DNA from: Litoreibacter albidus | GTDB lineage: Bacteria > Pseudomonadota > Alphaproteobacteria > Rhodobacterales > Rhodobacteraceae | NCBI RefSeq assembly: GCF_900107015.1 | Contig: NZ_FNOI01000005.1 | Location: forward strand, 1-64,000 | Reading direction: 5' to 3' | DNA: 64,000 bases | Shown here: in pieces, positions 43,653 through 57,902 of the stretch | How the letters are laid out: every line of letters begins with the position of its first letter | Numbering within the stretch: the first letter of the stretch is position 1 | Translations under genes and position numbers: made by a program | Notes under the pieces: generated by a model | The model's input: the letters and a program-made list of their open reading frames with translations, nothing else | The model's database searches: none | What the model was told of the DNA's origin: nothing

Positions 43653-44951
43653 TTAATCCACGGGCAATCCGCTTGGCACTTGCGTTGGCACGCCGAAGGG
43701 CGGCGTGTCCAAGGTGGTGCCCGTCAGCGCCTGTAAGAACGTCACCAGATCACCGACCTGCGCCGCGCTTAGCAAAGGGCTGCTGGGTGACAGCACGCGC
43801 TTCTGGCGGTCGATCTCGCTGCGGTCCTGCCAAATCAAAAAGTCCGCCTGTTGGAGCCAGTCCGCCTTCGGCAGCCTTGCCGACGCGGGCGTCCATGTGT
43901 CGAAAGCCGCGTGCGGGTCCATGTGCTGGCGGATCATCTCCGCCAGCGTTTGATGCGCGCCGTTGTGGCCGTAAGGGGCGGTCAGGGCGACGTTGCGCAG
44001 CATGGGCGTGCGAAACTTGTATGCGTCCTCCAGCCGGTCGCTTTCGCCCAGCCGTCCGACATCGCGGGCGATCAAATCAAAGCGCCGCGTGCGCCCCGGC
44101 CCGAAGGGTGGCACCCCGATGGCGTGAAACTTCTGGTCCGACAAAAGCGGGCCGCTGTGGCAGCTGGCACAGTTGGCCGCGCCGTAAAACAGATCAAGCC
44201 CGCGTTTTTGCGGCGCGTCCAGCGCGGTGGCGTCCCCCGCCAGATACTGGTCAAACGGGCTGTCGATGCTGCGAAACTCCACCGCCTGAAACGCCGCGAG
44301 GGCATTTGCGATCTCCACGATTGTGACCTCATGCGGCGCGGTGATATGCGGGAAGGCCGCGACGAACTTCCGGCCATATTCAGGGATCGTGCGCACGCGT
44401 TTTGCGACGATCGGCCATCCGTTGTCGATCCGGTCCGTGACAGCGCCCGCAACCTCGTTCTCTCCGGTGCCGCCCGCCATTTCGGTCTCTGAGGTCAGGG
44501 GGAAGAACGCCTGCGCGGCCAGCACGGTGTCGATCCCGTCGGGCAGCCATTCCTCAGCGGGGGTGTTGAAGGCGTTGCCGTAAGTGTTGGCCGCGCTGAT
44601 CCGCCCGTCATGCATCAACGTGTGGACCTGCCGCGCGCCAAGGTTCCAAAGTGCAGGGGCGTTGCGCGGCACGCGCCGCTCTATCCGGCTGTGGCCGGTT
44701 CCGGCGTGGCGGTCCGTACCAAGGCCAACGCCGCCCTCCCCGATCCCCAAGGACAGACCGTCGGAGGTGCCGAACTTCGGATGGTGACAGGTGCCGCAGC
44801 TGATATTCTTGTTCCCTGACAATATTTTGTCATAGAATAGCAGCTGACCGAGGGCCGCCTGTTTATGGTCCACAGGATGAAAATCAGCGGCAGAGAGCGC
44901 CGCCGGAAGCGGCTCCGCCGCAGCAACAGCGGGCATCAGCGCCGCGACCAC
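43653..44951 (-). CDS. Di-haem cytochrome c peroxidase (CCP/MauG family)
   Basis: The periplasmic protein has two haem-binding motifs, CGTCHHPKFG near the N-terminus and CASCHSGPL in the middle, plus the family segments FNTPAEEW, RTPMLRNVALTAPYGHNG and VGDLVTFLQAL. It reduces hydrogen peroxide or catalyses a MauG-like oxidation. The start is unclear: a signal-like stretch (AWAFLVVAALMPAVAAA) is in frame but has no ATG, and the GTG at 44951 used here falls inside it. The real start may be a rare codon slightly upstream, overlapping the divergent Sel1 gene. The GTG-based length is 432 residues. Confidence 0.85.
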   Translation of the reverse strand: MVAALMPAVAAAEPLPAALSAADFHPVDHKQAALGQLLFYDKILSGNKNISCGTCHHPKFGTSDGLSLGIGEGGVGLGTDRHAGTGHSRIERRVPRNAPALWNLGARQVHTLMHDGRISAANTYGNAFNTPAEEWLPDGIDTVLAAQAFFPLTSETEMAGGTGENEVAGAVTDRIDNGWPIVAKRVRTIPEYGRKFVAAFPHITAPHEVTIVEIANALAAFQAVEFRSIDSPFDQYLAGDATALDAPQKRGLDLFYGAANCASCHSGPLLSDQKFHAIGVPPFGPGRTRRFDLIARDVGRLGESDRLEDAYKFRTPMLRNVALTAPYGHNGAHQTLAEMIRQHMDPHAAFDTWTPASARLPKADWLQQADFLIWQDRSEIDRQKRVLSPSSPLLSAAQVGDLVTFLQALTGTTLDTPPFGVPTQVPSGLPVD

Positions 44952-44969
44952 CAGAAAGGCCCACGCCCT

Positions 44970-45437
44970 ATGCGCCCCCTGATTGCCCTGCTGCTGTGCA
45001 CGACGCCCGCCCTTGCCGATATCGAGGCGGCCCGCGACCTGATGGAAGCCAACAAGTTCGAGCAGGCCTACACCGCGCTTGCCCCCGCCGCGCGCGCCGG
45101 AAACGCCGACGCGGAGGAGCTGATCGGCATCATGTATGCGATGGGCTTGGGGGTAGAGCGCGACGATGTTCGGGCGTTCGAGTGGTACTTGCGCAGCTCC
45201 CTCAAGGGGCATCCGGGGTCGCAGTCCGCGCTTGGCTGGTATTACGAGATCGGGCGCGGCATGCCCGCGCCGGACCTGACGCGCGCCTATATGTGGTACA
45301 CGCTGTCGGCCATCGGCGGCGACCCCGACGCGGCGATCAGCCTTGAAGAGGTGGTCAAAAAGATGACGCCGGAGATGATCAAGAAAGCGCATATACTTGT
45401 CGCCGATTACAAAGGTTGGATGTACCCGTTCCGGTAG
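44970..45437 (+). CDS. Secreted Sel1-like repeat protein
   Basis: The 155-residue protein has a short signal peptide (MRPLIALLLCTTPALA) and two Sel1/TPR-like repeats at about 45-125, with the LIGIMYAMGLGVERDD and ALGWYYEIGRG patterns. It is probably periplasmic and may help assemble or partner the divergent peroxidase. The start codons of the two genes are within 20 bases of each other. A GC-rich hairpin follows the stop. Confidence 0.82.
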   Translation: MRPLIALLLCTTPALADIEAARDLMEANKFEQAYTALAPAARAGNADAEELIGIMYAMGLGVERDDVRAFEWYLRSSLKGHPGSQSALGWYYEIGRGMPAPDLTRAYMWYTLSAIGGDPDAAISLEEVVKKMTPEMIKKAHILVADYKGWMYPFR

Positions 45438-45489: not shown

Positions 45490-46545
45490 TTAGTTCAGGT
45501 CGCTTTCATAGGCTGTCGCCAGTTCGGCCTCGGCCTCATCCACGGCTGCAACCAGCGCATCCAGAATTTCAGGGCCGCCGTCTACGTTGCTGCGGAACCA
45601 ATCCTGCACGGGGGCCGCAGCCTCTGCGAAGGCGGCTTTTTGGTCTGGCGTTGGCACATAGAGGTCGCCGCCACCTGCCACGAAGGCCTCGTAGGCCTCG
45701 ATCGACTTGCGCTTGGGCGAGGCGAATGTGGCTTGCTGCAACTGGCTGAAGCCGTCGACCACAACGCGGCGCAGATCTTCCGGCATCGCCATGAAGTTGG
45801 CGTTCGACATCCACCACAGCGCACCCATGTAGGCGTGACCGTCGAGGGTGACATATTGCAGGCCCGCGTCAGGGAACTTCATACCCATGATGTCGGTGAT
45901 CCCGTTTTTGGAGCCTTCCACAACGCCGGTCTGGAACGAGGTAAACAGCTCTGGCCATGGGATCGGGGTTGGGGACGCGCCAAGCGCTTTCACCAGCTCT
46001 TGCGGCAGGTCGGCCACGACGGTGCGGATTTTCAGGCCTTCCATGTCGGATGGCTCCGCCACGCGGCGCTTGGTGTTGGCGAAGTTGCGCCAGCCGCCGG
46101 TGTTGCCGATGGTCATCAGACGGATCGCGCCGTCCGACGTTTCCAGCGCCATGTCGCGCATCTTGCGGGTGAAGTCGCCGGTTAGCACCGCCTCTGCCAC
46201 ACGGTCGTTGGCCATCAGATACGGCAGGTCCAGAACCTGCACATAGGGGAAGATGCCCGCCGCCCCGCCAGAGGTGGAGATATAGACGTCGATGGAACCT
46301 TCGGCGACGCCCTCAAGGCATTCCGCCCCCGTTGCGCAGAGCTGTGTGCCGATAAACAGCTCCACCGCGATGCGCCCGTTGGAGGCCGCTTCGACGTAGT
46401 TTTTGAACACGACGAGGCCGTCGTAGTCTTCGTCGTTCTCGTTGGAGTTGGCCGTGGCGCGGATGGTGAAATCCTGCGCCCAAGACGCCAGCGGCGTGGC
46501 CAGAAGTGCGGCCGTTAGCGCCGCTTTGGTTAGGTTTTTCAGCAT
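45490..46545 (-). CDS. dctP: TRAP transporter substrate-binding protein (DctP family)
   Basis: The 351-residue periplasmic protein has a Sec signal (cut near LASWAQ-DF). It carries the DctP pattern: the Arg that binds the substrate carboxylate or acidic group is expected in EGLKIRTV, and GIPWP-like contacts appear as PTPIPWPELF and FQTGVVEGSKN. Two Cys in IGTQLCATGAECLEG are unusual and may form a disulfide. It is the last gene of the monooxygenase/TRAP array; here binding to sulfoquinovose or a glycoside is proposed from context only. Confidence 0.93.
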   Translation of the reverse strand: MLKNLTKAALTAALLATPLASWAQDFTIRATANSNENDEDYDGLVVFKNYVEAASNGRIAVELFIGTQLCATGAECLEGVAEGSIDVYISTSGGAAGIFPYVQVLDLPYLMANDRVAEAVLTGDFTRKMRDMALETSDGAIRLMTIGNTGGWRNFANTKRRVAEPSDMEGLKIRTVVADLPQELVKALGASPTPIPWPELFTSFQTGVVEGSKNGITDIMGMKFPDAGLQYVTLDGHAYMGALWWMSNANFMAMPEDLRRVVVDGFSQLQQATFASPKRKSIEAYEAFVAGGGDLYVPTPDQKAAFAEAAAPVQDWFRSNVDGGPEILDALVAAVDEAEAELATAYESDLN

Positions 46546-46609
46546 TGTGTCCTCCCTATGGATGCTGGTGGCGCATCGTCCGATGCGCGGTTTTCGTGAC
46601 GTGCCGTGT

Positions 46610-48139
46610 TCACGGCGTTGGGCTTATACAAGCCGAGAAACCGACGTCGGGGCCGCACCCCAAGAAGCCGGCAAGATATGGCACCGTCATGGAAATGGCG
46701 GGCACATAGGTGATGAGGAAGATCACGACGACCTCCACCGCAAGGAACGGCAGGATCGCGCGCGAGATGGTTTCGACCTTCTCGCCGGACACCGATGACG
46801 CGACGAAGAGCACCAGCCCCATGGGCGGCGTGGCAAGGCCGACGGTCAGGTTCACCGACATGATGATCGCGAAGTGAACGGGATGCACGCCAAGGTCGAC
46901 GAAGATGGGGCCAAGGATTGGCCCGAGGATAATGATAGCCGGACCCGCATCAAGGAACATGCCGACGATGAACAACAGCAGGTTGATCAGGAACAGCAGC
47001 ACCAGCGGGTTTTCCGACAGCGACAGGATGTAATCGGACAGGATTTGCGGCGCATAGGACAGCGACACCACGGTCTTGAACGACACCGCCGCCCCCACCA
47101 GCAGCAACACCGCCGAGGTCGACAAAGCCGACCGCGTCAGCACCGCGATCAGATCCTGCCCGTTCATGGAGCGCAGCACGAAGAAGCTGATGATCAGCGC
47201 ATAGGCAACGGCCACCGCGGAGGCCTCCGTCGGGGTAAAGACCCCGATCAGGATGCCGCCCAGAATGATGATCGGGGTTTGCAGCGGCGCAATGGCCTTT
47301 TTGCACACCAGCCGGAAATCCGTGGACACCCGCGCCTTGGTCGCCTGCGCGACCGCATGTGCGATGGGCAGCGCCAGCGCGAAGATCAGCCAGCCGCTGA
47401 CCTGCACGGGCAACACCCACGTCACCACGCCCGACACCGCATATAATAGCCCCGCAATGTTGAGCCGGACCAGCGCGAAGCTAACGGCGGATTCCAGCGG
47501 CGTGATTGTTTGATCCTTGCGCACGATGCGCTCCGCCTTGGGCAGGTCGTAGCGGTCCGCCATCAGGCGCACCGTCGCCATAAGCCCGACGCCCACCAAG
47601 ATACCCGGCACGATGCCCGCAAGGAACAACGCCGCCACGCTTTCGCCCATGACATAGGCGTAGATGATCATGATGCCCGACGGCGGAATGATTGGCCCGA
47701 TGACAGAGCTGGCCGCCGTGATCGCCGCCGCAAATTTGCGGGTGTAGCCGTTCTTCTCCATCGCGGGGATCAGGGTGGAGCCAAGCGCCGATGTGTCCGC
47801 CACCGCAGAGCCGGACAGCCCCGCAAACAGTATCGACGCCAGAATGTTCACATGCGCCAGCCCGCCGCGCAGATGCCCCATGAAAGCCTGCGAGAACTCG
47901 ACCAAGCGCAGCGTGATGCCGCCACGGTTCATGATCTCACCCGCCAGCATGAAGAACGGCAGCGCCATCAGCGGGAAGCTGTCCATCCCGTTATAAAGGT
48001 TGCGGTACAGCCCCGCGACGACGTTGCGCTGGTCGCCCTCCAGCATGATCAGCGCGATGGGCGAGGCCAGCAGCGCGAAAACCACGGGCAAGCCGATCAT
48101 GATCAGCAGCAAGAAGATGGGCAAGAACCACAACAGCAT
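46610..48139 (-). CDS. dctM: TRAP transporter large permease (DctM family)
   Basis: The 509-residue protein has about twelve membrane segments and family motifs NRGGITLRLVEF, GLSGSAVADTSALGS and IPPSGIMIIYA. It couples sodium import to substrate entry. Its ATG overlaps the dctQ stop by one base (TGATG), so the two are translationally coupled. The C-terminus runs about 15 residues beyond the last membrane segment and ends in a Cys-containing tail. Confidence 0.95.
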   Translation of the reverse strand: MLLWFLPIFLLLIMIGLPVVFALLASPIALIMLEGDQRNVVAGLYRNLYNGMDSFPLMALPFFMLAGEIMNRGGITLRLVEFSQAFMGHLRGGLAHVNILASILFAGLSGSAVADTSALGSTLIPAMEKNGYTRKFAAAITAASSVIGPIIPPSGIMIIYAYVMGESVAALFLAGIVPGILVGVGLMATVRLMADRYDLPKAERIVRKDQTITPLESAVSFALVRLNIAGLLYAVSGVVTWVLPVQVSGWLIFALALPIAHAVAQATKARVSTDFRLVCKKAIAPLQTPIIILGGILIGVFTPTEASAVAVAYALIISFFVLRSMNGQDLIAVLTRSALSTSAVLLLVGAAVSFKTVVSLSYAPQILSDYILSLSENPLVLLFLINLLLFIVGMFLDAGPAIIILGPILGPIFVDLGVHPVHFAIIMSVNLTVGLATPPMGLVLFVASSVSGEKVETISRAILPFLAVEVVVIFLITYVPAISMTVPYLAGFLGCGPDVGFSACISPTP

Positions 48140-48735
48140 CAGTCAGCCCCCGCCAAAGCGTCGTTGCGAATAAGAGGCAACCGGTGCCCCTGCCCCAAGA
48201 GCGTGATGATCTGCCGGATGATAAGCTCGACGTTCACGAGGATCAGCAGGTTCACCCCGACCCAAAGCGACGCGTATTGGTAGTTGTTTTGAAACTTGGG
48301 GCCGCATTTGCCGATCTCGATCCCGAAGGGCCAGCGCAAAGAGGACGAACACCCCCGCCCCGACAGCGTGTCCACGTGGTTGTTCAAGCCACGGTCCCAC
48401 GCGATCCACAACACCCAAAGCGATATGCCCAACAAAAGCAGCCCGAGCAGCCCCGCAAGCAGCTTTGGCAGGGCGCTTTCCAGCATGTCGATGGCCACGA
48501 AGCCGCCCATGCGGTAGGCCAGCGGCGCCATGAGGCCCGTCATCCACAGCATGCCAAAGCGTGCGCCTTCTTCGGTCCAGTTCGGTGCATCGTTCAGGGC
48601 ATAACGAAAAAAGACCTGCCCCAAGATGAGACAGACCATAACCGCCAACGCAGTGATCCCGATCCAGCGGCCGACGGCCAGCAGGCGACTGTTAACCCAA
48701 TCCAGCAGGCCAGCGGCCGCCAAGAGTATCTGCAT
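48139..48735 (-). CDS. dctQ: TRAP transporter small permease (DctQ family)
   Basis: The 198-residue protein has four membrane segments, the family pattern CLILGQVFFRYALNDAPNWTEE, and FVAIDMLES in the middle. A GGGGGAGGAAG ribosome binding site selects the ATG at 48735. It overlaps dctM by one base and begins 51 bases after the flavin reductase gene. A Cys-rich insert (GCSSSLRWPFGIEIGKCG) between segments 3 and 4 is longer than in most DctQ proteins. Confidence 0.92.
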   Translation of the reverse strand: MQILLAAAGLLDWVNSRLLAVGRWIGITALAVMVCLILGQVFFRYALNDAPNWTEEGARFGMLWMTGLMAPLAYRMGGFVAIDMLESALPKLLAGLLGLLLLGISLWVLWIAWDRGLNNHVDTLSGRGCSSSLRWPFGIEIGKCGPKFQNNYQYASLWVGVNLLILVNVELIIRQIITLLGQGHRLPLIRNDALAGAD

Positions 48736-48786
48736 CACTTCCTCCCCCTGAGCTTGCGCGTTGCGGCCTCCTCGCCGCGCCACGCG

Positions 48787-49305
48787 TCAGTCTGCTGTAA
48801 ATCGTCCAACCTGTCCTTTGTAGAAGGCGAGCGGATCACCCTCTTCGCGCATCTGGGCGCGGTTCACCTGCCCCAGCATGATAACGTGATCGCCGCCCTC
48901 ATAGACGGCGGTTTTTGTGCATTCGAACCGCGCAAGGCAGTTCTCCAGAACCGGCACGCCTTCGGCGTTCAGGCTTAGATTGTGATCGTTCAGCGCAAAG
49001 GCATCGCGGGCCACGGCCCAGCACAGGTCATCCTGTTCAGCCGACAGCACATGCACCGCGTAGCTTGTCGCCTGCTCAAAATAGGAGAACCGCCGCGACG
49101 CCTTGTCAGGCGACCAAAGCACCAAAGGCGGCGACAGCGACACCGACGAGAAACTGTTGGCGGTGATTGCCGCGACCCCATCTTCAGTCGCGGCGGTCAC
49201 GATTGTCACGCCAGTTGCGAACCGCCCGAACGCATCGCGCAGCAAACGGGTATTGCTCTCGTCTGGCACAAAGGCATTCGGGGACGCGCTGGCATGGATC
49301 GACAT
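48787..49305 (-). CDS. Flavin reductase of a two-component monooxygenase (SmoA-like)
   Basis: The 172-residue protein has the split-barrel flavin reductase fold (residues about 20-165), with the signature RFATGVTIVTA, ITANSFSSVSLSPPLVLWS and a late GxHxI-like GDHVIMLGQV. It supplies reduced FMN to the monooxygenase two genes upstream. Its ATG overlaps the stop of the aldo/keto reductase gene (TGATG), so the genes are translated together. Confidence 0.92.
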   Translation of the reverse strand: MSIHASASPNAFVPDESNTRLLRDAFGRFATGVTIVTAATEDGVAAITANSFSSVSLSPPLVLWSPDKASRRFSYFEQATSYAVHVLSAEQDDLCWAVARDAFALNDHNLSLNAEGVPVLENCLARFECTKTAVYEGGDHVIMLGQVNRAQMREEGDPLAFYKGQVGRFTAD

Positions 49306-50195
49306 CAGGCGACCTCACGACCCAAAGCGGCGGTGTAGAGGGCGAACCACGCCTCGCGGTCCAGCTTGACCTTCAACGCGTCAGAGATTTTCGCGATACG
49401 CTCCAGATTATTGGTGCCCAGAACCGGCAGGATGTTGGCCGGATGGCGCAGCAAGAAGGCCACGGCGACCGCAGCGCGGTCCACGCCCTGCTCCGCCGCG
49501 ATGGCGTCCAACTGGTCCGCAACCGCGCCGCTGCCCGTCATGAGATCGCCGCCACCAAGGGGGGACCATGCCATGATCGGCTGGCCGTGACGCTGGTGGA
49601 ACACCATGTCGCCGTTGGTGAAGGGATCGACCTGCGCCAAGGACATCTCGATCTGGTTCGTCGACAGGCGGGTTTTCATGCCCGATTGCAGCAGCTCCCA
49701 ATCGTAGGGGCGGAAGTTTGACACGCCCACCGCACGGACCTTGCCGCTACGGATCAGATCGTCCAGCGCCGCGCCCGTCTCGTGATGATCCATCAGGGGA
49801 TCGGGGCGATGAATAAGCAGCATGTCGATATAGTCGGTGCCCAGATCGCGCAGGGTGCATTCCACGGCCTGCTCGATGTGCTTGCGCGATGTGTCGTAGT
49901 GTTTCACCCGCGCGTCCGCATAGCGGCCTGTTGGCGCGACGATGTCACATTTGCTGACAATCTCCATCTTGGCGCGCAGCGAGGGGTTCGCCTTCAGCGC
50001 ATCGCCAAGCACGGCCTCGGCGGTGTAGCCGCCGTAAATATCGGCCTGATCAAAGGTGGTGATGCCCTGATCCAGACAGGTTTGAATTTTGGCTTCTACA
50101 TGGGCGGGCGATGTGTCGGTGTCATCCGCGACGCGCCACATCCCGTAGACAAGGCGGCTGAAGGTAACATCGGGGGACAGCGTAATTCGATCCAT
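49305..50195 (-). CDS. Aldo/keto reductase (SmoB-like, YdhF subgroup)
   Basis: The 296-residue TIM barrel has the AKR catalytic Asp and Tyr in FDQADIYGGY, Lys in IVSKCDIV and His in LLIHRPDP, plus the cofactor region LPVLGTNNLERI. In the sulfoquinovose monooxygenase pathway of Agrobacterium an AKR (SmoB) reduces 6-oxo-glucose to glucose. The gene's ATG overlaps the stop of the monooxygenase gene (TAATG) and its stop overlaps the start of the flavin reductase gene, so the three form one translational unit, which supports that reading. Confidence 0.9.
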   Translation of the reverse strand: MDRITLSPDVTFSRLVYGMWRVADDTDTSPAHVEAKIQTCLDQGITTFDQADIYGGYTAEAVLGDALKANPSLRAKMEIVSKCDIVAPTGRYADARVKHYDTSRKHIEQAVECTLRDLGTDYIDMLLIHRPDPLMDHHETGAALDDLIRSGKVRAVGVSNFRPYDWELLQSGMKTRLSTNQIEMSLAQVDPFTNGDMVFHQRHGQPIMAWSPLGGGDLMTGSGAVADQLDAIAAEQGVDRAAVAVAFLLRHPANILPVLGTNNLERIAKISDALKVKLDREAWFALYTAALGREVA

Positions 50196-51349
50196 TAGCG
50201 GCGGACTCCTACGGCAAGCGGGGTTTGGGGAGGCTGCGCCGGAACGCGGCCATATGCGAGAGGAAGCGAGCAGGTTTTCATCTGCGGCAGCACACGTGTG
50301 CCAAAATGCTTCGCCTCGTCTATATGCGGATACCCCGACAGAATAAACGCGCGAATGCCCATTTTCTGGTAGGCCTCCAGCTTGGACAGCACCTGATCCG
50401 TGGAGCCGACAATCGCCGCCCCGCAGCCCGAACGGGCGCGTCCCACCCCCGTCCACATATGTGGCTCAATGTAGCCGTGATCATCCGCCAGATCACGGTT
50501 CTTGGCTTGGTGGCTGACCCCCAAGGATTTGGCATCAAGGGCACGGTCACGAATGGCGCTGCCTTGGTCGTCATCCAGCTTTGATACGATATATTCCGCG
50601 TATTCCTTGGCCTCGGCCTCGGTGTCGCGCACGATCACATGGGTGCGCAGGCCATAGTCCAGCGTCCGGTTGTGGCGGGCGGCGGCCTCGTTCGCGGCCT
50701 TCATACGGCCTTCGAGATCTTCGACCTTTTCCGGCCACATCAGGTAGACGTCGCAATACTCCCCGCACAGCTCCAACGCGTCGGGGGAATAGCCGCCGAA
50801 GTAGAGCATCGGGCCGCCTGATTGATAGGGGCGCACGGGGTCCGTGGTCAGACCCTTGAAGTCGTAGATTTCGCCGGTGTGGTTAATCTCGTCTTGGGTC
50901 CACGCCTGCTTGAGGATTTGCACCACCTCACGGGACCGCTGGTAGCGGTAGGGGCTTGGCTCTTTCTGGCCCGGAAAATCGGAGGAGATGATGTTAACCG
51001 TCAGCCGCCCCTCCAGCATGTGGTCGAGCGTCGCCAACGTCCGTGCCAGCATGATCGGCTGCATCTCCCCGCAGCGCACGGCGGCCAGCAGGTTGATCTT
51101 GGAGGTGATGGGCGCGCAGCCCGCGACGAAGCTGAGCGTGTCTTGACCCACTTGGTAGGACGACGGGCACAGGATATTGCGAAAGCCTTGGTCTTCAGCG
51201 GTTTTCACGATGTCGGAGCAATGCGCCCAAGAGGAGCGCAGGTCGCCGTCCGGCACCCCGAGGAACTGGTAGTCGTCAGAGCAAAGCGCCGAGAACCAAG
51301 ACACCTCTGCGGCATCCAGATCGGGTGATGTCACCGGAACAACTGTCAT
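50195..51349 (-). CDS. FMNH2-dependent monooxygenase of the SsuD/bacterial-luciferase family (SmoC-like)
   Basis: The 384-residue TIM-barrel monooxygenase is close in pattern to alkanesulfonate monooxygenase SsuD: WFSALCSDDYQFLG, the Cys-containing LCPSSYQVG, GRLTVNIISSDFPGQ, and the late GTRVLPQM. Such enzymes split C-S bonds of sulfonates, releasing sulfite and an aldehyde. With the adjoining AKR and flavin reductase it matches the SmoC-SmoB-SmoA set that turns sulfoquinovose into glucose and sulfite. The start at 51349 has GGAGGAA six bases upstream. It heads the operon facing a GntR gene. Confidence 0.9.
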   Translation of the reverse strand: MTVVPVTSPDLDAAEVSWFSALCSDDYQFLGVPDGDLRSSWAHCSDIVKTAEDQGFRNILCPSSYQVGQDTLSFVAGCAPITSKINLLAAVRCGEMQPIMLARTLATLDHMLEGRLTVNIISSDFPGQKEPSPYRYQRSREVVQILKQAWTQDEINHTGEIYDFKGLTTDPVRPYQSGGPMLYFGGYSPDALELCGEYCDVYLMWPEKVEDLEGRMKAANEAAARHNRTLDYGLRTHVIVRDTEAEAKEYAEYIVSKLDDDQGSAIRDRALDAKSLGVSHQAKNRDLADDHGYIEPHMWTGVGRARSGCGAAIVGSTDQVLSKLEAYQKMGIRAFILSGYPHIDEAKHFGTRVLPQMKTCSLPLAYGRVPAQPPQTPLAVGVRR

Positions 51350-51399
51350 CTGATTCCTCCCAAAACCGTGCGGCAATTTATCCTTGCGTAGCCTTGTCG

Positions 51400-51424
51400 T
51401 TGATGTAGATCAATGGGGTATCAA
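51400..51424. promoter_or_regulatory. Operator candidate between the monooxygenase operon and the GntR gene
   Basis: The palindrome TTGAT GTAG ATCAA (51400-51413) is followed by a further ATCAA at 51420-51424, eleven bases after the previous one. It lies between the divergent starts and is the likely binding site of the adjacent GntR protein. Confidence 0.55.
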
Positions 51425-51449
51425 TTTTTCCTGCGAGGTCACCCCCACC

Positions 51450-52160
51450 ATGTACGAGCGTCAAGACAGCCCCGCTGCCTTACCGATCTACGCGCAGGTG
51501 AGCGAGGTTCTGATCCGCGAGATTGCCGCCGGACGGCTGGCCGACGGCCAGCGCCTGCCGCCCGAACGCCAGATGGCGGCGACGCATCAGGTAACCGTGC
51601 GCACGTTGCGCAAATCGCTAAAAATACTAGAAGAAAAAGGGCTGTTGGAGCGCATCCAAGGCTCTGGCAACTACGTGCGGTCCAACCCCGCTGCGCAAAG
51701 TATCTACTCTATGTTTCGCATTGAACTTTTGGCGGGCGGCGGGCTGCCCACGGCCAAGTTTCTGGACATCACGACCTGCGAAAAACCGAGCGACCTGCCC
51801 GAATTCGGCACCTCCACACGCGGCACCCGCATGCGGCGGCTTCGCTTTTTAAACAAAGTCCCCGCCGCCGTGGAAGAGATCTGGCTGGATGCGGACAGCG
51901 GCACGGTGCTGGCGGAACAGGCGTCGGACTCGCTCTACCGCTACTACCAAGTGAAGCTGGGTTTCTGGATTTCGCGGGCGGAGGACTACGTGAGCATCGG
52001 GCAGACGCCGGACTGGGCCCCACCGGAATTTGGCAAAACCGCAGGTCAGGCCACCGGTTTTATTGAGCGCCTAAGCTGGGAGCAAAAACCGCATCCCGTT
52101 GAGTATTCACGAACATGGTTCGACACAGACACCGCACGCTACGTGCAACGGCTTAAATAG
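51450..52160 (+). CDS. GntR-family regulator, HutC subfamily
   Basis: The 236-residue protein has the winged HTH at about 14-80 (LPPERQMAATHQVTVRTLRKSL, GSGNYV) and a UTRA effector domain at about 95-235 (EEIWLDADSG, RLSWEQ). HutC-type proteins usually sense a sugar or amino-acid metabolite. It faces the monooxygenase operon and is followed after ten bases by the Gfo/Idh/MocA gene, so it probably represses both directions. Confidence 0.9.
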   Translation: MYERQDSPAALPIYAQVSEVLIREIAAGRLADGQRLPPERQMAATHQVTVRTLRKSLKILEEKGLLERIQGSGNYVRSNPAAQSIYSMFRIELLAGGGLPTAKFLDITTCEKPSDLPEFGTSTRGTRMRRLRFLNKVPAAVEEIWLDADSGTVLAEQASDSLYRYYQVKLGFWISRAEDYVSIGQTPDWAPPEFGKTAGQATGFIERLSWEQKPHPVEYSRTWFDTDTARYVQRLK

Positions 52161-52170
52161 GAAAAACGAC

Positions 52171-53280
52171 ATGGCGAAACTGGTCAATTACGGCGTCATC
52201 GGATGCGGCATGATGGGGCAGGAGCATCTGCGCAACATCGCGCTTTTGCCCGACACCCGCGTCAGCGCGATCTTCGAGCCGGATGCGGGCATGGCAGCGG
52301 AGGCGCTGAACTTCGCGCCCGACGCAGAGCTGGTGCCCAGCATCGACGCGCTGCTGGAAGTGGCCGATCTGGATTGCCTGCTGATCGTCAGCCCCAACTT
52401 TCGCCATGTGGAGCAACTGGAGGCCATCGCCGCCAAACGCCCCCTGCCCGTGCTGGTGGAAAAGCCGCTGTTCACCGATCCAGATCACGTCACGCGGATG
52501 GAAGCGTTCCAGCAAAGCTACCCCGCGCCCGTGTGGGTCGCGATGGAATACCGCTACATGCCGCCGATTGCCGCCTTCCTAAAGGACGCGGCGGCGAGCA
52601 CGGGCGGCGTCAAAATGCTGACCATCCGCGAACACCGCTTCCCGTTCCTCCCCAAGGTCGGCGACTGGAACCGCTTCAACCGCAACACCGGCGGCACCTT
52701 CGTGGAGAAATGCTGCCACTTCTTTGACCTGATGCGTCTGGTGATCGGCGCGGAGCCGGTCCGCGTCATGGCGTCCGGCGGGCAGGATGTGAACCATCTC
52801 GACGAAACATATGACGGGGAGACGCCCGACATCTTCGACAATGGCTATGTGATCGTCGACTTCGCCTCTGGCGCACGCGCCATTTTGGAACTGTGCATGT
52901 TCGCGGAGGGCGCGCGCTACCAAGAAGAGGTGTCTGCGGTGGGGCCATTGGGCAAGATCGAAGCCTTGGTGCCCGGACCGGGGCGGTTCTGGCCGGACCA
53001 TCTGGGCGCGCCGCCCGTGCCACAGGTCATCGTCAGCCCACGCAGCCCGAAAGGCCCCTACGTGCGGGAGGTGCCGGTGGACCCGACCATTCTGGACGCG
53101 GGCGATCACAACGGATCGACCTTCTACCAACATCAGGGTTTTGTGGACTTGGTGCGCGGCAACCGCGACGCGGCGGACGTAGGGCTGCACGACGGGCTGA
53201 TTTCGGTGATCATGGGCATGGCGGCGCAGCGCTCCATGACGGAGCACCGCGCCGTGCGCATTGACGAGTTTACCGGCTAG
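52171..53280 (+). CDS. Gfo/Idh/MocA-family NAD-dependent enzyme (candidate NAD-dependent sulfoquinovosidase)
   Basis: The 369-residue protein has an N-terminal Rossmann domain (VIGCGMMGQEH, then the EKP motif in LVEKPLF) and a C-terminal alpha/beta sheet domain. The segment EHRFPFLPKVGDW, RFNRNTGGTFVEKCCHFFDL resembles the group of this superfamily that uses transient NAD oxidation to cleave glycosides, and in sulfoquinovose clusters such enzymes act as sulfoquinovosidases. An ordinary sugar dehydrogenase remains possible. It follows the GntR gene; its TAG shares two bases with the phoH stop on the other strand. Confidence 0.85.
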   Translation: MAKLVNYGVIGCGMMGQEHLRNIALLPDTRVSAIFEPDAGMAAEALNFAPDAELVPSIDALLEVADLDCLLIVSPNFRHVEQLEAIAAKRPLPVLVEKPLFTDPDHVTRMEAFQQSYPAPVWVAMEYRYMPPIAAFLKDAAASTGGVKMLTIREHRFPFLPKVGDWNRFNRNTGGTFVEKCCHFFDLMRLVIGAEPVRVMASGGQDVNHLDETYDGETPDIFDNGYVIVDFASGARAILELCMFAEGARYQEEVSAVGPLGKIEALVPGPGRFWPDHLGAPPVPQVIVSPRSPKGPYVREVPVDPTILDAGDHNGSTFYQHQGFVDLVRGNRDAADVGLHDGLISVIMGMAAQRSMTEHRAVRIDEFTG

Positions 53281-57041: not shown

Positions 57042-57902
57042 ATGCGGCACAGCTCTCTTAGCGACTTTTTGGGCGTGGCCCAAACCCAGCTTTCGCCTAA
57101 GGGCCCGTTTGCACTGGTGTTTATCGAAGACGACACCGAGGTGGAAAGCACCATCAGCCACGTCCAGAAACTGGGCTTTCGCGAAGTGCTGGCCTTTGCC
57201 TCCGGCCACTTGTTGCCGAAACCCCGCGACGGGCTGCATCTGATCGAAACCGACATCCACGAGCAGGACGCCTTCGCGCGCATCACCACCGAGGTGATCA
57301 AACTGTTTCCCGGCGTCTGGATGCACTACTGCTTCAACGCCGAATTCCTGTACTTCCCGTTCTGCGAAAGCCGCAATGTGCGGGAGTTGATCGCGTTCAA
57401 CCTAGAGGAACGACGCCACACGGTAATGACCTATGTGGTCGATTTGTATTCCAAGGATCTGGGCAAACACCCCAATGCCGTGTGCATGGAGGACGCCTAT
57501 CTGGACAAATCGGGCTACTACGCCTTGGCGCGGTTTAGTGAGGACGGCCATGCGCTGGAGCGACAATTGGACTTCTTCGGCGGGCTGCGCTGGCGCTTTG
57601 AGGAGCATATCCCGTGGACCCGCCGCCGGATCGACCGCGTGGGGCTGTTTCAGGCGGCGAAGGGCTTGGAGCTGCTGGGCGACCACACGTTCAACGAGCC
57701 GGAATACAACACCTATTCCTGCCCGTGGCATCACAACATTTCCGGCACGATCTGCTCGTTCCGAACGGCCAAGGCGTTGGTGTCCAACCCGGGGTCCATG
57801 TATGAAATCCCGCACTTCTGGTGGAAGAACTCGGCCAAGTTCGAGTGGAATTCCAACCAGCTTCTGGAGCTGGGCCTGATGGAACCGGGGCAGTGGTTCT
57901 AG
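57042..57902 (+). CDS. Conserved protein of unknown function, possibly glycosyltransferase-like
   Basis: The 286-residue protein starts [18 protein letters not shown], a beta-strand followed by an acidic DD pair reminiscent of glycosyltransferase nucleotide-sugar sites. Later come [17 protein letters not shown], a [11 protein letters not shown] stretch with Cys and His residues, and [13 protein letters not shown]. No signal peptide or membrane anchor is seen. It is divergent from miaB and converges with hsp20. I cannot assign an activity. Confidence 0.65.

Follow-up and report, generated by a model that had tools for sequence, protein, structure and literature searches.

Sulfoquinovose (SQ), the sulfur sugar of plants and algae, is consumed in the sea by roseobacters, among others. 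The sulfoquinovosidase of Agrobacterium tumefaciens is a GH31 enzyme; the locus described here has a predicted GH188 enzyme instead. According to excerpts of PMC9594981 and PMC8873060, the sulfoquinovose monooxygenase (sulfo-SMO) pathway of A. tumefaciens relies on the same SmoC, SmoB and SmoA chemistry that we propose below, but is supplied by an ABC importer with a binding protein for sulfoquinovosyl glycerol (SQGro), whereas the present locus has a TRAP importer. More generally, the SQ importers described in the accessible portions of PMC8873060 and PMC12421959 are ABC systems. Passages of PMC10755693 put SQ production at ~10 billion tons a year, and report that sulfo-SMO combined with GH188 is near-universal in Roseobacter, which means that intracellular cleavage of the glycoside has also been published for this clade.

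We analysed a 64,000-nucleotide stretch of DNA from Litoreibacter albidus (hereafter the window). On sequence evidence, it very probably carries a sulfolytic SQ utilisation locus combining TRAP import, GH188 cleavage and breakdown by SmoC, SmoA and SmoB. The breakdown enzymes are of known kind, while the importer type and a neighbouring gene pair appear little studied.

Layout of the locus and its recurrence

The features of the locus are as follows.

43653..~44951, minus strand: MauG-like di-haem c-type protein, probably periplasmic (PF03150; start uncertain)
44970..45437, plus strand: Sel1-repeat protein, N-terminus signal-like, gene divergent to that of the MauG-like protein (PF08238)
45490..46545, minus strand: dctP, TRAP substrate-binding protein, proposed ligand SQ or its glyceryl glycoside (PF03480)
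46610..48139, minus strand: dctM, TRAP large permease (PF06808; TIGR00786 over cut-off)
48139..48735, minus strand: dctQ, TRAP small permease (PF04290; ATG at 48735 after a purine-rich stretch; alternative GTG start at 48783)
48787..49305, minus strand: smoA, flavin reductase (PF01613, position, overlap with smoB)
49305..50195, minus strand: smoB, aldo-keto reductase predicted to convert 6-oxo-glucose to glucose (7BBY match)
50195..51349, minus strand: smoC, predicted FMNH2-dependent SQ monooxygenase of the LLM family (start at M10 of P0006; 7OLF and 7OH2 matches)
51400..51425, no strand: predicted operator within the promoter that gntR and smoC share (TTGATN4ATCAA inverted repeat at 51400-51413 plus a third half-site)
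51450..52160, plus strand: gntR, HutC type (GntR + UTRA), likely regulator (PF00392, PF07702)
52171..53280, plus strand: sqgA, predicted cytoplasmic GH188 NAD-dependent sulfoquinovosidase (8ZN9 and 8QC3 matches, active-site residues)

Every gene named in the first-pass annotation of the window was found at the coordinates given there and belongs to the family named, and the start-to-stop overlaps it had reported between smoC, smoB and smoA (TAATG and TGATG) are present in the sequence. It missed an extension of the locus beyond dctP, consisting of the Sel1-repeat gene and the MauG-like di-haem gene, which recur with dctP.

The full layout (smoC, smoB, smoA, dctQMP and the divergent gntR-sqgA) occurred at 32/51 loci in a sample of the family and at 48/66 loci in a sample of nearest relatives; these samples share some organisms, and 9/60 and 14/80 loci, respectively, were left out for short flanks. 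Recurrence at this level indicates that the gene arrangement is not due to chance. TRAP genes were present at 34/51 family SmoC loci with sufficient flank and missing at 17/51, so that the layout proposed earlier as a variant is in fact the commonest in the family sample. At two loci (L015, L030), smoC stood beside gntR without smoB and smoA.

The divergent orientation of gntR and smoC was conserved in 50/51 family loci. The inverted repeat TTGATN4ATCAA was found exactly in 80/137 gntR-smoC intergenic regions, and the full operator pattern occurred a single time in the genome with ≤2 mismatches allowed. GntR is likely to be the switch, acting through this repeat.

Predicted enzymes of sulfoquinovose cleavage and breakdown

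SmoC of the window matched 7OLF at 686 bits (76% identity) and 7OH2 at 664 bits (73%), and all other solved enzymes at ≤179 bits, including SsuD-type enzymes at 179 and 174 bits. Clustering with non-SQ enzymes was therefore absent by similarity, and the assignment as a SQ-type monooxygenase held. SmoB, whose gene overlaps smoC, matched 7BBY at 426 bits (65.5% identity across 296 residues), with the next relatives at 218 bits. We take 7OLF and 7OH2 to be SmoC and 7BBY to be SmoB; the PDB entry names are generic, and a literature search for the three codes found no paper. With these identities, the earlier reading of the window as a putative sulfo-SMO locus gains support. SmoA had a PF01613 family match only, its best solved relative reaching just 138 bits, and flavin reductases of this type are non-diagnostic for the pathway.

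SqgA was 67% identical to 8ZN9 and 48.5% identical to 8QC3. Using residue roles from excerpts of PMC10755693, we checked eight GH188 active-site positions (Glu163, also named there, is outside this set), and 8/8 were present in the window protein. The sulfonate-binding Arg166, Leu170 and Lys172 of ArSqgA correspond to R156, L160 and K162, and Lys107, Tyr136, Glu189, His193 and His321 to K98, Y127, E179, H183 and H313; all were conserved in 154/154 aligned rows (window included; ArSqgA numbering transferred by hand via the alignment). The NAD-binding domain starts at residue 5, leaving no space for a signal peptide. No GH31 match was found anywhere in the window's own genome. Together, the 8ZN9 similarity, the conserved residues and the missing GH31 support the suggestion that the Gfo/Idh/MocA protein is the probable glycoside-splitting enzyme.

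A candidate TRAP importer for sulfoquinovose

DctP, DctQ and DctM are all present in the window, with Pfam matches exceeding the cut-offs. DctP orthologues were 67-94% identical to the window copy (26 aligned loci, picked from 55), and paralogues within the same genome ≤30%. Among 394 family genomes, a DctP orthologue was found in 142 and SmoC in 165; 110/142 DctP genomes also carried SmoC (Fisher p 1e-27, kinship ignored). This left 32/394 genomes having DctP without a SmoC match (absence defined as no match at E 1e-100). At 22/32 of these loci DctP accompanied an isomerase-kinase-aldolase (EMP-type) cluster, called on at least two of the SQ-isomerase-like, PfkB kinase and LacD-like aldolase genes, and GH188 was present in 22/22. 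A further 7/32 had SMO-type genes, including L200, whose 9.5 kb contig carries a fragment of SmoC, and 3/32 had neither type. SQ genes were consequently found at 29/32 loci (22 EMP-type plus 7 SMO-type). Judged by gene content, DctP is linked to SQ catabolism independently of any one pathway, and this co-occurrence with two kinds of SQ pathway supports the proposal that import may be by TRAP. An AlphaFold model of DctP (27 orthologues) had a mean pLDDT of 67, falling below 50 at residues 170-227, and was too poor for a reading of the pocket.

The transporter varied among SmoC loci. An ABC label was first given to 7/51 and 11/66 loci on Walker and signature motifs alone; counting only genes that share the strand of smoC and lie at the typical distance from it leaves 5/51 and 9/66 loci. 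Among the loci that lost the label, L167 has a cassette of the MacB/FtsX type. On a quick SmoC tree (108 rows, many weak forks), the TRAP, ABC and other labels required 22 changes, which suggests that the transporter was probably swapped or lost repeatedly, with no direction of change inferred.

Proposed pathway and alternatives

In the proposed pathway, DctPQM would import SQ and its glyceryl glycoside SQGro, and cytoplasmic SqgA would split SQGro into SQ and glycerol with transient NAD+ oxidation at C3. SmoC, given FMNH2 by SmoA, would then cut the C-S bond of SQ to yield sulfite and 6-oxo-glucose, which SmoB would reduce to glucose.

Alternatively, the TRAP system could be a neighbour that imports another sulfonate or an organic acid, with SQ entering otherwise. 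TRAP systems usually carry organic acids. Some have been put forward for taurine and sulfolactate (sections of PMC10507020), the isethionate-binding DctP 8T9T is third among the solved relatives of the window DctP (105 bits), and a third of the family SmoC loci, the 17 noted above, lack TRAP genes. However, the 8T9T match is far too remote to give a substrate, and DctP forms a distinct, strongly conserved orthologous group that accompanies two different SQ pathways; we consider other cargo unlikely.

Far less probable are two readings that concern the enzymes. If the locus served free SQ only, the Gfo/Idh/MocA protein might be an ordinary inositol-type dehydrogenase, and its best NCBIfam match is indeed TIGR04380 (inositol 2-dehydrogenase), but at 94.9 bits against a cut-off of 355; its identity to 8ZN9 and 8QC3 and the conservation of every checked sulfonate-binding and substrate-contact residue make this very improbable. 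Marginally less credible still is SmoC as a broad alkanesulfonate monooxygenase for sulfur scavenging rather than SQ growth. It does match TIGR03565 (alkanesulfonate monooxygenase, NCBIfam) at 224.8 bits, yet below the cut-off of 518.2, lies far nearer 7OLF and 7OH2 than SsuD-type enzymes, and is accompanied by SmoB and GH188. SQ utilisation by TRAP import, GH188 and sulfo-SMO remains our preferred reading.

A MauG-like di-haem gene and its Sel1-repeat neighbour

The MauG-like protein had two CxxCH motifs in 109/109 aligned rows and scored below the cut-off of the curated MauG model TIGR03791 (115.3 vs 443.85 bits). The Sel1 gene adjoined it in 104/110 loci, and the long MauG-like ORF to 45440 reads antisense through the Sel1 gene. 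Our query carried ~150 residues translated antisense to that gene, which inflates scores at loci with a neighbouring Sel1 gene; with the MauG portion only, tblastn scores in L211-L226 were 444-525 bits, compared with ~408 bits for the cut-off applied. The window's genome has another copy, 44% identical, whose neighbours (solute-binding-protein, sensor kinase and FG-GAP genes) were not seen in SQ loci.

We considered whether the MauG-like gene is a mere syntenic bystander. SmoC or a window-type DctP was present in 111/113 family genomes having the gene, a count that ignores kinship; it was absent from 31/110 genomes having SmoC and DctP, and in most of L211-L226 it stood without any searched SQ gene (several contigs are short). 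Against a bystander, it neighboured both pathway types, being present in 19/22 EMP-type loci, and lay directly behind smoA even in TRAP-less loci (L120, L167, L230 and L229, the last with no smoC seen within the stretch examined). It is possible, and we propose it tentatively with the balance somewhat against it, that the MauG-like protein and its divergent Sel1 partner form an unrecognised periplasmic part of SQ use common to SMO and EMP-type clusters, with TRAP as a pathway-independent roseobacter SQ importer. The MauG-like protein may have the TRAP binding protein as its target, e.g. by oxidising an aromatic residue, it may act on the sulfolipid-derived substrate outside the cytoplasm, or it may be a redox enzyme of the periplasm linked to uptake.

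Implications and comparison with known systems

If TRAP is the importer, ~36% of the sampled family genomes (142/394) carry a different uptake route, and the TRAP genes would be usable as a genomic marker across SQ pathways. A di-haem protein tied to SQ loci would add a step missing from the pathway schemes found in the available parts of the literature. The novelty is smaller than the first-pass annotation claimed: sulfo-SMO with GH188 and intracellular cleavage is already described in passages of PMC10755693, and the TRAP layout is common. TRAP import of SQ had no mention in the literature searched, which covered key papers incompletely. A term search of the main text of PMC10755693 returned no transporter and no cytochrome; its figures and supplements, outside the search, may draw TRAP genes. 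In the searched parts of PMC11659671, PMC12421959, PMC11968277, PMC12133307 and PMC6278857, 'trap' is a verb or an instrument part, not a transporter. One of the searches for TRAP or MauG with sulfoquinovose gave three matches that, judging by their titles, concern other subjects.

The locus resembles the Roseobacter clade clusters, as excerpted from PMC10755693, in being SMO-type and sulfolytic with a GH188 sulfoquinovosidase and without GH31. Its DctP is a TRAP binding protein like 8T9T, which serves a sulfonate, but belongs to a different orthologous group (only 105 bits). The MauG-like protein shares PF03150 and two c-type haem motifs with MauG, bacterial di-haem cytochrome c peroxidases and 6E1C, is distant from them (at best 111 bits to 6E1C and 60 to MauG) and, unlike them, is tied to sulfoquinovose loci.

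Identity and layout of the probable sulfoquinovose locus

The genes from which the first-pass annotation had proposed a sulfoquinovose (SQ) locus with a TRAP importer were confirmed in both position and family. SmoC scored 686 bits against 7OLF (76% identity) and 664 bits against 7OH2 (73% identity), compared with at most 179 bits against all other solved enzymes, whilst SmoB shared 65.5% identity with 7BBY and scored half as high against its next solved relatives. The PDB names themselves are generic, and we take 7OLF and 7OH2 to be the SmoC, and 7BBY the SmoB, of the sulfo-SMO pathway. The smoC stop and smoB start overlap in TAATG, and the smoB stop and smoA start in TGATG. The closest SmoC relatives among named genomes (93-97% identity) occurred in Litoreibacter and one Sulfitobacter MAG, on which basis we assign the window to the Roseobacter group. 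The genome carrying the window (3.58 Mb, 12 contigs) has three matches to the sulfite-oxidase-type model PF00174, none on the window's contig. Elsewhere in the window, a 286-residue ORF (57042-57902, + strand) matched nothing in Pfam or NCBIfam at E 0.001.

The start of gntR lies most likely at 51450 and that of smoC at 51349, and their shared promoter of ~100 bases contains one inverted repeat:

51400-51413, inverted repeat TTGATN4ATCAA

This repeat was by far the commonest of its kind, occurring exactly in 80 of 137 promoter regions, a frequency that reflects conservation and is no independent evidence of binding, because these regions are related by descent. Excluding its own extensions, every other repeat occurred in at most 6 of the 137. 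Together with a third half-site it was found once in the whole genome with up to two mismatches allowed, against zero matches for the reversed control pattern; the short repeat alone was unremarkable in the window (2 matches versus 1.2 expected, allowing up to one mismatch). We infer that GntR binds this repeat.

SqgA and the possible entry of SQ glycosides

The Gfo/Idh/MocA protein SqgA (52171-53280, + strand) was 67% identical to 8ZN9 and 48.5% identical to 8QC3, and also matched 8QC2; in the available text of the paper on GH188, the NAD-dependent sulfoquinovosidase family, 8QC2 and 8QC3 are given as structures of SqgA (PMC10755693). The same text names sulfonate-binding residues (Arg166, Leu170 and Lys172) and substrate contacts (Lys107, Tyr136, Glu189, His193 and His321), and counterparts of all eight were present in the window's SqgA and in 154/154 aligned rows. 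The NAD-binding domain match of SqgA starts at residue 5, which leaves the protein without a signal peptide and makes a location in the cytoplasm likely. The GH31 model PF01055 had no match anywhere in the genome. If used through SqgA, SQ glycosides must enter the cell whole.

Occurrence of the TRAP layout

SmoC (E ≤ 1e-100) was present in 165/394 sampled family genomes. We took the first 60 of these by handle with a listed location, 51 of which had sufficient flank, and, as a second sample, the 80 nearest SmoC loci from named genomes (66 with sufficient flank). The TRAP form is the commonest layout and no oddity, since TRAP genes occurred in 34/51 and 49/66 loci, respectively. An ABC ATPase motif was found in 7/51 and 11/66 (5 and 9 when limited to the smoC strand and usual distance), and neither in 10 and 6. 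A divergent gntR occurred in 50/51 family loci and sqgA in 46/51; the complete window layout was seen in 32/51 and 48/66. Two loci, L015 (labelled a Geminicoccus MAG) and L030, had smoC with a divergent gntR, and smoB, smoA, sqgA and an orthologous TRAP were not found nearby.

One importer with two probable degradation routes

Window-type DctP (E ≤ 1e-130) occurred in 142/394 family genomes, 110 of which also carried SmoC (Fisher p 1e-27, counting genomes as independent despite their kinship). Orthologues were 67-94% identical to the window's DctP (45490-46545, - strand; 26 loci aligned of 55 available), and the closest paralogue in its own genome 30%. C70 and C76 were invariant in 27/27 aligned orthologues, making a disulfide between them possible.

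We then examined the 32 genomes that carried window-type DctP but yielded no SmoC hit at E ≤ 1e-100. In 22 (among loci L174-L205), one from the window's own genus (G171), the transporter lay beside two or all three of the genes for an SQ-isomerase-like protein, a PfkB-type kinase and an aldolase resembling LacD (EMP-type). The isomerase-like protein's sole NCBIfam match was NF048012 (277 bits, under the cut-off of 700), and a DeoR-type regulator gene occurred in 19/22. Seven loci were SMO-type but lacked smoC, except that L200 retained a fragment of it on a contig of 9.5 kb; three had neither gene type, one being a 3.6 kb contig. L179, L188 and L204 were SMO-type with TRAP and sqgA, the SmoC match being absent from the stretch; gntR was present in L179 and L188.

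As 22/32 of these loci were EMP-type, the importer accompanies EMP-type as well as SMO-type clusters, two routes that differ in their chemistry but both begin from SQ or its glycoside. Its co-occurrence with both, genetic in nature, is the strongest evidence on the TRAP substrate; the DctP structure model was too poor for reading the pocket. A different sulfosugar, for example sulfofucose, is conceivable as the substrate of the EMP-type clusters. However, a GH188 relative with 42-54% identity to the window's SqgA was present in all 22, and the conserved GH188 site speaks for SQ. Assignment of the TRAP importer to SQ uptake is well supported by context.

MauG-like and Sel1-repeat genes beside the importer

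Two divergent genes lie beyond dctP, outside the span first annotated:

44970-45437, + strand, Sel1-repeat gene
43653 to about 44951, - strand, MauG-like di-haem gene

A longer ORF reaching 45440 was rejected as the extent of the MauG-like gene, being an antisense artefact through the Sel1 gene. Across the family, this pair (43653-45437) was associated with SQ loci of both pathway types. The MauG-like gene lay downstream of dctP and co-oriented with it in 37/49, 20/36 and 21/30 loci (three sets, sufficient flank), and Sel1 adjoined it divergently in 104/110. It was detected in 113/394 family genomes (E 1e-120), with DctP in 106 and DctP or SmoC in 111 of these, compared with 2/197 genomes that had neither DctP nor SmoC. 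In the TRAP-less loci L120, L167 and L230 it followed smoA directly, with no Sel1 there, and in several genomes it stood apart from every SQ gene searched for. The gene is dispensable, as it was missing from 31/110 genomes having SmoC and DctP. Its product fell far under the MauG model cut-off (115 bits against 444) and was only remotely similar to solved di-haem peroxidases. A second MauG-like gene, 44% identical, is located on contig 6 of the same genome (L231:7106-8506), directly behind a sensor kinase gene and the gene for a periplasmic solute-binding protein that belongs to a different family.

Comparison with known systems

Within incomplete literature coverage, TRAP import of SQ is not mentioned in PMC10755693 (main text) or in the available parts of PMC11465081, PMC13372026, PMC12890257, PMC12421959, PMC9594981, PMC11131964, PMC11659671, PMC8873060, PMC11968277, PMC12133307, PMC6278857 and PMC10507020, the last of which, in its available part, proposes TRAP systems for smaller sulfonates. 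That GH188 is near-universal and GH31 absent in Roseobacter sulfo-SMO clusters is already published (PMC10755693, available text). The window's enzymes and its GH188 are of this established kind, and the locus adds another example of the Roseobacter form.
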